From positions 1 to 47,962 of IMG/VR virus record IMGVR_UViG_3300021959_010708: a stretch of 47,962 nt of DNA, one strand, 5' to 3'. This DNA is from a virus. The notes beneath the pieces were generated by a model, which saw only the letters and a list, made by a program, of their open reading frames with translations, searched no databases and was not told the DNA's origin. A program made the position numbers and the translations under genes. Each line of letters opens with the position of its first letter. Positions within the stretch are counted from its first letter, which is position 1. Below are positions 24,636-44,256 of this stretch, one piece after another.

Positions 24636-25109
24636 TTACTGTGAATCTATGTTTGCGATACCAAGTGCCGCAACTGAAGATGCGTCAAATGCCTCGTCAC
24701 CGATCGCCGCACCACCTTGTGTGTTGTTGCCATCTGCGATTGAAGATTTGAACTTGTTAGAACCTGCAGTAGCGTCAGCACCGATTCCTCCTACAACAAC
24801 AGTTCTATTTGTGATTTTAGAAGCGTTGTCTACAGATGAATCAAGTGGGTTTACAACTGAGATTCTGAACTCGCCTTCTCCCAGAGCACCGGAAGCTTTG
24901 TCAACAAGTGTAAGCACGACATCTGAAGCGGCTGAGTCAGCCACTGCGTCTACTCTCACTTTGAATTTTCTTGTTGAACGCTGAGAAACGATGTACGCAA
25001 GTGAATCTTGTGTAGTTGTTGTTTCTGTTCCGCCTACGAGTCTGTATGAAGTTACTTGAATCTTGCCTGCGCCTGATCCTAAGTATTTTTTATTAATAGG
25101 TCTTCCCAT
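24636..25109 (-). CDS. Virion structural protein (157 aa)
   Basis: A 157-residue protein starting MGRPINKKYLGSGAGKIQV, a start I associate with structural proteins of marine T4-like phages. It is rich in Ala, Ser, Asp and Gly, with mostly beta character and low complexity toward the end. Expression looks strong and separately controlled: it has its own late motif (25208-25214), a roughly 95-base structured leader, an AAAAGGAGAA ribosome site and its own terminator (24600-24622). That suggests a high-copy virion component. Confidence 0.72.
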   Translation of the reverse strand: MGRPINKKYLGSGAGKIQVTSYRLVGGTETTTTQDSLAYIVSQRSTRKFKVRVDAVADSAASDVVLTLVDKASGALGEGEFRISVVNPLDSSVDNASKITNRTVVVGGIGADATAGSNKFKSSIADGNNTQGGAAIGDEAFDASSVAALGIANIDSQ

Positions 25110-25207
25110 TATGTTCTCCTTTTGTTTGTGTGTCCAACGTGGGTTCTAGCCACTACGCGGAGGACGTTACCGCATAAGTCCTGCTATGCAAGCTCTATTA
25201 GACTGTG
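25110..25207 (-). promoter_or_regulatory. Structured leader of the 157-aa virion gene
   Basis: About 95 untranslated bases between the late motif and the ATG. The minus-strand RNA can form competing helices: GCATA/TATGC (25072+100 region, i.e. 25172-25176 with 25185-25189), AGGAC/GTCCT (25061+100 region, i.e. 25161-25165 with 25178-25182), GCGG/CCGC (25157-25160 with 25170-25173) and GTGG/CCAC (25139-25142 with 25150-25153). The first three exclude one another. No known riboswitch class is recognised. Confidence 0.4.
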
Positions 25208-29045: not shown

Positions 29046-29563
29046 ACTATCCTCACTTGTTTGATTTCGGGAACTTTGGATGCTATCTTATTGTAGACCG
29101 CTCCAAGGGTGGCTTCGTTGTTAGGGCAACCCCAACAGGATCCATGCATTTGAAGATGCACTATGCCATTTTGATATTTGACAAACTTGATGTCCCCACC
29201 ATCCATTTGCACAGCGGGCCTGATTTCATCTTGGATGATCTGCCTGATTGCACAACATATCTCATCTGTGCAGTATTGATCTGTCTGTCCTGTCTCGATG
29301 AAACACTTATCGGACTCCATCACTTGTTTGACCTTATCGGTAATCTCACCCCATCCCCATTGCGGAAACTTAGTCACGGTGACTTCATGATCCTGTAAAA
29401 GGACATATCTCACTCCCGCGACCCTGAATAACTTTTTCACGAAGTCGTTGGATTTGATGGCGAGATCGATGTCGTACCAAACTGAACCATTGCCCACCAA
29501 CTGAGACCTTGATTTAAATTTCAAAGCATCGGGGTTGGGGGTTGGTTCAGTCTGTACGAACAT
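29042..29563 (-). CDS. Nfu-type Fe-S cluster carrier (NifU C-terminal domain)
   Basis: A 173-residue Nfu protein. The N-terminal domain starts MFVQTEPTPNPDALKF, the Nfu_N signature. The C-terminal NifU domain has IRPAVQMDGGDIKFV and the cluster-binding CxxC in GSCWGCPNN. The ATG at 29563 is chosen because MFVQTEPTPNP is the family's normal start and it forms a TAATG overlap with the superoxide dismutase stop. Nfu hands 4Fe-4S clusters to client enzymes. The set Nfu, SufT-like and A-type carrier, with SOD, forms a compact Fe-S protection and delivery module. Confidence 0.93.
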   Translation of the reverse strand: MFVQTEPTPNPDALKFKSRSQLVGNGSVWYDIDLAIKSNDFVKKLFRVAGVRYVLLQDHEVTVTKFPQWGWGEITDKVKQVMESDKCFIETGQTDQYCTDEICCAIRQIIQDEIRPAVQMDGGDIKFVKYQNGIVHLQMHGSCWGCPNNEATLGAVYNKIASKVPEIKQVRIV

Positions 29564-33553: not shown

Positions 33554-34306
33554 TTATTGTACTACAAAATCGTACATTCGTATACGAAAACCTTTGGTTT
33601 TCATATCCATTATTTTATCTGCGAAATCCTTCACACTGTAGAAATCATTCATTTCAAAAGGATCCTTGGATGATATCACCATCAGCAGTTCATTTGGATT
33701 TTCGTCCTTGACCATCTTGATGTTGTAATTAGAATTTGGCACTGTCAACATGTCGACCTTTTGGCCAGGATGAACCTCATTGGGGTAAACTTTGATGGCT
33801 TCCGAGTTCAGCACAAATATGGCAAAGTATTGTTTGCTCTCTGCATGGACTTCCAACTTCATATAGTCATTGGCATGATATTGTCCATTCTTGTTCATCA
33901 GCACGGAGAAATCATGATCTGTGTCGTACAACTTGTTGATGTCCATCACGAATCCATCTACCTGTGCTACACAGTATCTCCTACCGTCACGATATATTAT
34001 CTCTGTGGCGTAGGTTGATTTCTTGACTATGCCAGGAAATGTGATCCATTTGAACGAGTTCAATTCACAGTTGTCATTGATGCATGTTTTGAGATCGTTC
34101 ACCTGGATGACTTGTCCCAACTCATCTTCTATCAACTGCTTGGTCGCTTTTAGTTTAGCGATCTCGCAAGATTGATTTTCTGTTATGTCAGGTCCAAAGT
34201 CGTGTATGCCTATGGCAGTGCCGGCCCAAGCCGATGCACACCATAGACACACAACGAGTGTGGTGGTTAATTTACTCAATGATTTCCGATTGAGCAAATG
34301 TTTCAT
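33554..34306 (-). CDS. Secreted protein with DUF4384-like domain
   Basis: A 250-residue protein with a signal peptide (KLTTTLVVCLWCASAWA, cleavage after about residue 28). The second half (MKLEVHAESKQYFAIFVLNS, then VYPNEVHPGQKVDM, VPNSNYNIKMVKDENPNEL and ISSKDP) follows the DUF4384 pattern of a strand, a 'yPn' turn, an 'iP' segment and a final strand. DUF4384 proteins often accompany LPP20- or CsgG-type lipoproteins, and here the LPP20-like gene immediately precedes and overlaps it. The ATG at 34306 is used because AAGGA lies eight bases upstream. Predicted periplasmic. It may form part of an outer-membrane assembly or export device. Confidence 0.7.
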   Translation of the reverse strand: MKHLLNRKSLSKLTTTLVVCLWCASAWAGTAIGIHDFGPDITENQSCEIAKLKATKQLIEDELGQVIQVNDLKTCINDNCELNSFKWITFPGIVKKSTYATEIIYRDGRRYCVAQVDGFVMDINKLYDTDHDFSVLMNKNGQYHANDYMKLEVHAESKQYFAIFVLNSEAIKVYPNEVHPGQKVDMLTVPNSNYNIKMVKDENPNELLMVISSKDPFEMNDFYSVKDFADKIMDMKTKGFRIRMYDFVVQ

Positions 34307-42943: not shown

Positions 42944-43549
42944 TTATGCAGATTCTACATCTGATCTGTGTGTGATGATTTTATCGATAAGTCCGAATTC
43001 AAGTGCTTCTTGTGGCGACATGAATTTGTCACGTTCCATGGCTTGATTGATAACTTCAATGTCTTGACCGGTGTGGTCAGCATACATTTGATTGAGTTTT
43101 TTCTTGATCTTTATTATCTCTTCTGCCTGGATCTGAATGTCTGTGGCCTGTCCTGAAGCACCACCCGAAGGTTGATGGATCATGATCCTTGAATTTTTTA
43201 GGGCATATCGCTTGCCTTTGGTTCCTGCCATGGCCAGCAGTGATCCTGCTGAACAAGCTTGTCCTATCACGAGAGTTGATATGTCACACTTGATGAATTG
43301 CATGGTATCATACATGGCCAATCCTGCTGTGACCAATCCACCCGGTGAATTGATGTACATGTAGATGTCCTTGTCGGGGGCCTGTGATTCTAAGAACAGC
43401 AGTTGTGCCGACACGATTGAAGACACCTGTTCGTTGATGCCTCCGGTTAAAAATATAATTCTTTCTTTTAAAAGACGTGAAAAAATATCATAACTTCTTT
43501 CACCCTTTGATGTCTGTTCTATTACAACAGGTACTAAACTCATATCCAT
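42944..43549 (-). CDS. clpP: ATP-dependent Clp protease proteolytic subunit
   Basis: A 201-residue ClpP serine protease. Catalytic Ser lies in [14 protein letters not shown], His in [13 protein letters not shown], and Asp in [12 protein letters not shown], giving the full triad. [10 protein letters not shown] is the conserved oxyanion strand, and the N-terminal axial-loop segment [23 protein letters not shown] is present. It would form the double heptamer that degrades proteins fed by ClpA (phage clpA at 6898-9120). Three in-frame ATGs are near the start; that at 43549 is chosen because the -10 box ends six bases before it. Confidence 0.95.
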
Positions 43550-43584
43550 GCTCATATTATACTACTCCTCTGTGATTTCGTCAA
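43550..43584 (-). promoter_or_regulatory. Sigma70-type promoter, leaderless geometry, for clpP
   Basis: Minus strand: -35 TTGACG at 43579-43584, 17-base spacer, -10 TATAAT at 43556-43561, six bases, ATG at 43547-43549. Confidence 0.75.
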
Positions 43585-43954
43585 CTGACTTGATGTTGCT
43601 TGGTTTGTCGCACAGCAACCCACAATTGTCAAACCATCTTCCATCGCCCAGTTCGTAGTAGGTTTGCCAAAAATTGCCTTCGTTGTTGATCCTTTTGCGT
43701 GATACTTTCCTTACCTTGATGGATCCTTGATAGTACGAACCGTTTGCTTCGACCACTTTAAAATTATCTTTGGTGTATCCTTCATACAATCTGGCGGTGT
43801 AGTCGTACTCCTGTTTGTCTTCATTCCACGCACCAACACGATTGGATTCTAATTTTGGAAAATTTAATTTCTTTTTGATTTCCTGTTGTTGCAGATATTC
43901 TTTGTATTTGTCTGGGTCTGTGACCCTTAAAAATGCTAATTCTTTGTCTTCCAT
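43562..43954 (-). CDS. Hypothetical protein behind a structured leader (130 aa)
   Basis: A 130-residue acidic, soluble protein: helical start (MEDKELAFLRVTDPDKYKEYLQ), then a beta-rich second half (YYQGSIKVRKVSRKRI, WQTYYELGDGRWFDNCG). No motif recognised. The ATG at 43954 is preferred because the further upstream frame enters a conserved-looking RNA structure. The message carries a three-way-junction element (43969-44057) about 14 bases upstream, and no ordinary Shine-Dalgarno sequence is seen at the usual distance, so translation may be controlled by that structure. Confidence 0.6.
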   Translation of the reverse strand: MEDKELAFLRVTDPDKYKEYLQQQEIKKKLNFPKLESNRVGAWNEDKQEYDYTARLYEGYTKDNFKVVEANGSYYQGSIKVRKVSRKRINNEGNFWQTYYELGDGRWFDNCGLLCDKPSNIKSVDEITEE

Positions 43955-43968
43955 GTTTGTGTGCTGGC

Positions 43969-44057
43969 TAACCCTTGATGCTCTTAAGTTCAAATGCCCT
44001 TAGAGTGACAGAACAAAAAAGACATTCTGACTCTGTCATAAGATCGATCAAGGGTTA
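43969..44057 (-). ncRNA. Three-way-junction RNA element (candidate riboswitch or cis-acting RNA)
   Basis: An 11-base-pair perfect closing helix pairs 43969-43979 with 44047-44057. Inside are a 7-bp helix with one bulge (43981-43988 with 43999-44005, ten-base loop) and a perfect 7-bp helix (44006-44012 with 44032-44038, 19-base loop). The inner helices are directly adjacent, as if coaxially stacked. An alternative pairing (44002-44013 with 44025-44034) would replace both inner helices' shared segment, so two states are possible. It lies between the Hc1-like gene and 43562-43954. Not recognised as a known class. Confidence 0.6.
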
Positions 44058-44070
44058 ACACAATTTTCAT

Positions 44071-44256
44071 TTACTTGGATGAGGCCGCTGCCTTCTCCTC
44101 AAGTATCTCTTTTCTTCTTGCCTTGATGAGTTTACCTAATTCCTGCAGAGCTTTTCTGGCCCTTGTCGCAGATGCTTTCACACCCTTGTCAGTAAACTTT
44201 TCGTTTTCTTCGATGTAAGCCTCGAATTGGCTTTTGATTTCATCATTTGTTGACAT
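44071..44256 (-). CDS. Histone H1-like (Hc1-type) DNA-binding protein (61 aa)
   Basis: A 61-residue protein: acidic helix first (TNDEIKSQFEAYIEENEKF), then the basic helix FTDKGVKASATRARKALQEL and IKARRKEILEEKAAASSK. The pattern K-G-x-K-A-(A/S)-x-x-R-x-R-K-x-x-x-x-L...K-x-x-R-K-E resembles the core of chlamydial histone-like Hc1. It probably binds DNA and may compact phage or host DNA. The ATG at 44256 is chosen by its AGGAG ribosome site; the upstream frame runs through the promoter. Confidence 0.75.
   Translation of the reverse strand: MSTNDEIKSQFEAYIEENEKFTDKGVKASATRARKALQELGKLIKARRKEILEEKAAASSK

Follow-up and report, generated by a model that had tools for sequence, protein, structure and literature searches.

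The viral record analysed here (from IMG/VR, 47,962 bases long, hereafter the window) holds a 116-nt gap (43955-44070) between a histone-like gene, hc1, and a gene of unknown function, gX. Most of this gap is filled by a sequence that the initial annotation described as a compact three-way-junction RNA and as a possible riboswitch, which raises the question of what this RNA is and whether it serves the genes around it. The observation could be partly confirmed and its coordinates were nearly right. The features of the locus are listed below in the direction of transcription.

44071-44256, minus strand: hc1, gene for the histone H1-like protein Hc1, located upstream of the element (Pfam PF07432, E = 1.1e-14)
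43990-44070, minus strand: 26-codon frame that overlaps the element and starts beside the hc1 stop codon; without conservation and probably due to chance
43964-44063, minus strand: full extent of the fold, P1 plus two pairs, a bulge and three basal pairs
43969-44057, minus strand: core three-way-junction RNA (-32.0 kcal/mol, z = -4.97), found in this contig only
44047-44057, minus strand: 5' arm of P1, UAACCCUUGAU (pair probability 0.88-1.0)
44006-44038, minus strand: P2 hairpin, 8+5 bp, with a U-rich loop (pair probability 0.75-0.99)
43981-44005, minus strand: P3 hairpin with 7 bp, one bulged base and the loop GGCAUUUGAA (pair probability 0.45-0.89)
43969-43979, minus strand: 3' arm of P1, AUCAAGGGUUA
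43562-43954, minus strand: gX, gene of unknown function downstream of the element, DGRWFD family (59 relatives by profile search)
42944-43555, minus strand: clpP, the next gene of the operon after gX (PF00574, E = 1.7e-83)

Most genes of the window are carried on the minus strand, and since both hc1 and gX lie there, the sense RNA of the element is that of the minus strand. A plus-strand reading of the element was discarded, as the fold is weaker in that orientation (-24.0 kcal/mol, z = -3.37) and the neighbouring genes run the opposite way. No promoter-like site was found on the minus strand from 44281 to 43584, and with both neighbours on this strand the element is therefore most likely located inside the hc1-gX transcript. 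The 26-codon frame that starts at 44070 was also considered as a leader peptide and rejected; it is not conserved and has 8 codons in L005, one of the relatives described below. For gX itself, no Pfam family was obtained and PHROG gave weak matches only, and searches with its AlphaFold2 model (mean pLDDT 89) by Foldseek (PDB and BFVD) and VIA-align returned no significant structural match. It had been pointed out that gX lacks a normal ribosome site, which is correct and applies also to the gX orthologues of the three nearest gX-bearing relatives (L003-L005, no Shine-Dalgarno sequence). This is uninformative, because Shine-Dalgarno-like sites precede only 15 of the 55 genes of the window in a crude scan. 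Ten window genes have a sigma-70-like promoter with 11 or 12 of 12 matches, the -10 box of which ends exactly 6 nt before the likely ATG (minus-strand starts at 2840, 5563, 10406, 26296, 31460, 34820, 35561, 40417, 43549, and 46686). These spacings suggest leaderless mRNAs, and several gene starts would move downstream under such a reading. Elsewhere in the window, at 25107-25193 on the minus strand, a match to freshwater-2 RNA (RF02980, 52.9 bits, E = 2.5e-5) directly precedes the gene at 24636-25109; this virus thus carries a known RNA of the cis-regulatory type.

On the minus strand, none of 200 shuffled sequences folded as well as the 89-nt core. The 11-bp perfect closing helix (P1) reported initially was recovered, with TAACCCTTGAT (43969-43979) and ATCAAGGGTTA (44047-44057) forming a perfect inverted repeat, and it can be extended by a U-G and a G-C pair to 13 bp and, past a bulge, by three more pairs. 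Perfect inverted repeats of at least 11 bp were present in 7 of 3000 shuffles of the gap. The two inner helices had been given as 7 bp each with almost no unpaired linker, a description that fits P3 with its bulged base and the junction between P2 and P3, where no base intervenes; P2, however, has 13 bp with a bulge, and 8 nt precede it on the 5' side. One base follows P3. The compact three-way junction thus stands, the core leaves only 27 nt of the gap, and a structured RNA before gX is supported on thermodynamic grounds. A functionless chance fold in a non-coding gap has to be weighed here, given that the window contains thousands of 89-nt stretches and that 2 of 3990 such windows on the minus strand had a composition-corrected energy equal to or below that of the element. 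These two stretches (29473-29561 and 34177-34265) fold more strongly than the element after correction and both lie within predicted coding regions. A genome search also located the same 22 inverted-repeat bases in two unrelated bacterial contigs, against about 0.5 matches expected by chance by our own estimate; both were rejected as homologues, since one proved to be a terminator-like hairpin and the other an unrelated inverted repeat. Against chance, the gap as a whole has a z score of -4.4 and was not equalled by any of 1000 shuffles. We conclude that the fold is real, and that chance alone is an unlikely explanation.

The initial annotation also proposed a second, overlapping pairing by which the RNA could switch. 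This pairing, of CCCUU with AAGGG of P3, forms only in transcripts too short to include the P1 3' arm; it has a probability of 0.0 in the full-length ensemble, and keeping that arm from pairing makes the fold about 15 kcal/mol less stable in the ligand-free prediction. The element is therefore a stable structure with no evident switch; two exclusive conformations of comparable stability, as generally seen in riboswitches, do not appear in the ligand-free prediction. Among the 4227 models of Rfam 15, which cover its riboswitch classes as well, none matched the element at E values up to 10 except for chance snoRNA-like matches. Many riboswitches do share with the element a compact multi-helix junction placed before a gene. 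Assignment to a riboswitch class nevertheless found no support, considering the Rfam result, the lack of an equilibrium alternative, and the terminators that usually occupy this position after hc1 (see below). In a wider sense, a riboswitch or protein-binding RNA could act in cis as a leader that controls gX by refolding, which would agree with the location directly before gX, with the alternative pairing of shortened transcripts and with the conserved structured leader found before distant gX homologues. We consider this doubtful, as the full-length ensemble does not refold, there is neither a ribosome site to hide nor a terminator to form, Rfam offers no counterpart, and relatives with the same gX lack the element.

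The nearest relatives of the window were chosen by means of ClpP, with sequence reaching upstream of it, and comprise L003, L004, L005, and L006 (97%, 93%, 93%, and 88% ClpP identity, respectively). In L003-L005 gX precedes clpP, and in L006 clpP comes directly after hc1. The element is absent from all four. The hc1-gX gap of L005 measures 26 nt, is without the element and begins with ATGAAAAT as in the window. L003 has a different, U-less 8-bp hairpin at the same place together with an extra small frame. In L004, hc1 is followed by a long insertion, and a promoter-like site immediately precedes gX. Directly after hc1, L005 and L006 have no comparable hairpin, and the function of the element can therefore not be essential in the clade. 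Nor was a copy detected elsewhere: there is no second one within the contig of the window, an exact search of the viral contigs with the P1 repeat and a blastn search of cultured phages and 12 related records gave none, and a covariance model built from the single element (R1) returned, over 32 sources including the window and on both strands, only the copy of the window itself. Judged by title and the first part of the abstract, none of the papers listed by a non-exhaustive literature search describes these elements.

This distribution bears on the possibility that the sequence is a fold-back DNA insertion (MITE-like, with 11-bp inverted-repeat ends) or an inverted duplication that arose between hc1 and gX and has no regulatory role. 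Perfect terminal inverted repeats and absence from L003-L006 would be expected of such an insertion, and the core is flanked in the gap by 13 and 14 nt, that is 27 nt in total, as compared with 26 nt for the entire gap of L005. MITE-like elements would, on the other hand, occur in several copies with shared terminal repeats and a target-site duplication. No second copy was found in the contig, among the viral contigs (searched with the terminal repeats) or in cultured phages, and there is no independent target-site duplication, the flanking TTA being part of the repeat itself. As a full account of the element, an insertion devoid of function appears unlikely. It would concern the origin of the element, as a possible source, and is compatible with the explanation that we prefer below. 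An integron attC site, with its RYYYAAC and GTTRRRY core sites, was rejected because the ends of the element do not fit these core sites.

Genes for Hc1-like histones occur frequently among these viral contigs (L032-L110), and a strong intrinsic terminator almost always follows them. Such a terminator lies within 110 nt of the hc1 stop in 74 of 83 hc1 loci and is absent in the window and in L003-L006, from which we infer that it has been lost in the clade of the window. The terminators hold the same position as the element, just after the hc1 stop. They are simple GC-rich hairpins with a U-tract, whereas the element is a three-way junction followed by GCCAGCACAC after P1, and does not have the GC-rich hairpin and U-tract of an intrinsic terminator. 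Termination itself is therefore an unlikely function.

Our preferred explanation, held tentatively and with a probability of about 0.4, is that the element is a lineage-specific, constitutively folded and recently acquired intercistronic structure in the hc1-gX-clpP mRNA that does not respond to a ligand. It agrees with the stronger fold being on the sense strand, with the P1 pair probability of 0.88-1.0 and with the lack of an equilibrium alternative. Related viruses would end the hc1 transcript by an intrinsic terminator that was presumably lost in the clade of the window, and the folded block may partly replace this terminator by protecting the 3' end of hc1. It may also separate the expression of hc1 from that of gX. 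In addition, the element might keep the start codon of gX near the stop codon of hc1, a role in spacing that is possible because its flanks together nearly equal the L005 gap. Protective hairpins between cistrons or at 3' ends occur in bacterial and phage mRNA, as in REP-type barriers, and share with the element a stable fold between cotranscribed genes. The element differs from them as a single-copy, predicted three-way junction.

The suspicion that the RNA belongs with the gene downstream fits in an unexpected manner, as distant gX homologues in other marine viruses have a different conserved structured leader. The profile search with gX yielded 59 loci, many of which have a structured RNA of ~120-155 nt whose end lies a few bases short of the start codon of gX (for example L154:2189-2336, L161:2188-2330, L164:2129-2273, L127:2199-2329, and L133:2188-2324, and about 20 more loci). 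A model built from four of these loci (R2) retrieved 20 loci, all in front of gX, and the R3 model gave 27 matches, two of which are one false positive in overlapping loci of the same record. In total, the leader RNA is present at about 25 loci and always adjoins gX; in L178, L180, and L184, which were found by DNA pattern alone, gX likewise comes right after it. Among 40 whole records, R3 detected eight copies and again this false positive, a match in L005 (24.6 bits) judged as such because of its position within a long open reading frame; no true copy was found in L003-L006 or the window. In alignment A8, which was fitted to the model, 92.7% of the cells are paired and 19 of the 24 modelled pairs have changed on both sides; pairing falls to 28-45% when the partners are slid by 1-3 columns. 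RNAalifold, run on A8 without the model structure, predicted the same outer helices and showed covariation at 14 of 18 pairs. The leader RNA had no match in Rfam 15. Among its conserved features, P1/P2 forms a long closing helix and UCAUUUG occurs with the pairing CUC/GAG; one hairpin carries a loop of five bases such as CUUUA or CUCUA, and another, which is variable, often has the loop GUGACAG. A sigma-70-like promoter (TTGACA...TATAAT-like) is often situated just upstream. One contig with this leader, L161, also matches alphaproteobacterial tmRNA at 267-610 (108 bits), overlapping a permuted-tmRNA match.

Both the leader RNA and the window element stand directly before the same gene family (in the window, 14 nt separate the P1 core from the gX start at 43954), both have a long closing helix around two hairpins, and the leader, like the element, is usually found where gX has no ribosome site. 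They differ in the ~120-155 nt length of the leader, its UCAUUUG/GAG closing motif, five-base-loop hairpin and GUGACAG loop, and its frequent possession of a promoter. The element of the window does not belong to the leader family, with which it shares position and generic plan only. A strongly derived member would account for this position and plan, but is very unlikely: with filters off, the element scored 2.0 bits (R2) and 2.6 bits (R3), no better than neighbouring sequence, compared with 21.7 to 116 bits for the R3 members; UCAUUUG, the five-base-loop hairpin, the closing GAG and GUGACAG do not occur in it in the order of the family (alignments A7 and A8); the promoter usual at the 5' end of members is absent; and the three nearest relatives with gX lack the leader. 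It is conceivable, if rather improbable, that gX is habitually controlled by an RNA leader and that, in the lineage of the window, the family absent from Rfam was lost and an unrelated three-way junction took over its role.

By itself, the element is an isolated case of a folded intergenic RNA. Following gX, in turn, revealed a conserved leader RNA that is missing from Rfam and that accompanies, in uncultured marine viruses, a gene family of unknown function. This leader RNA family in other viruses is a more valuable product of the analysis than the element itself, and offers ligand screens, tests for ribozyme activity and structural studies a concrete target.
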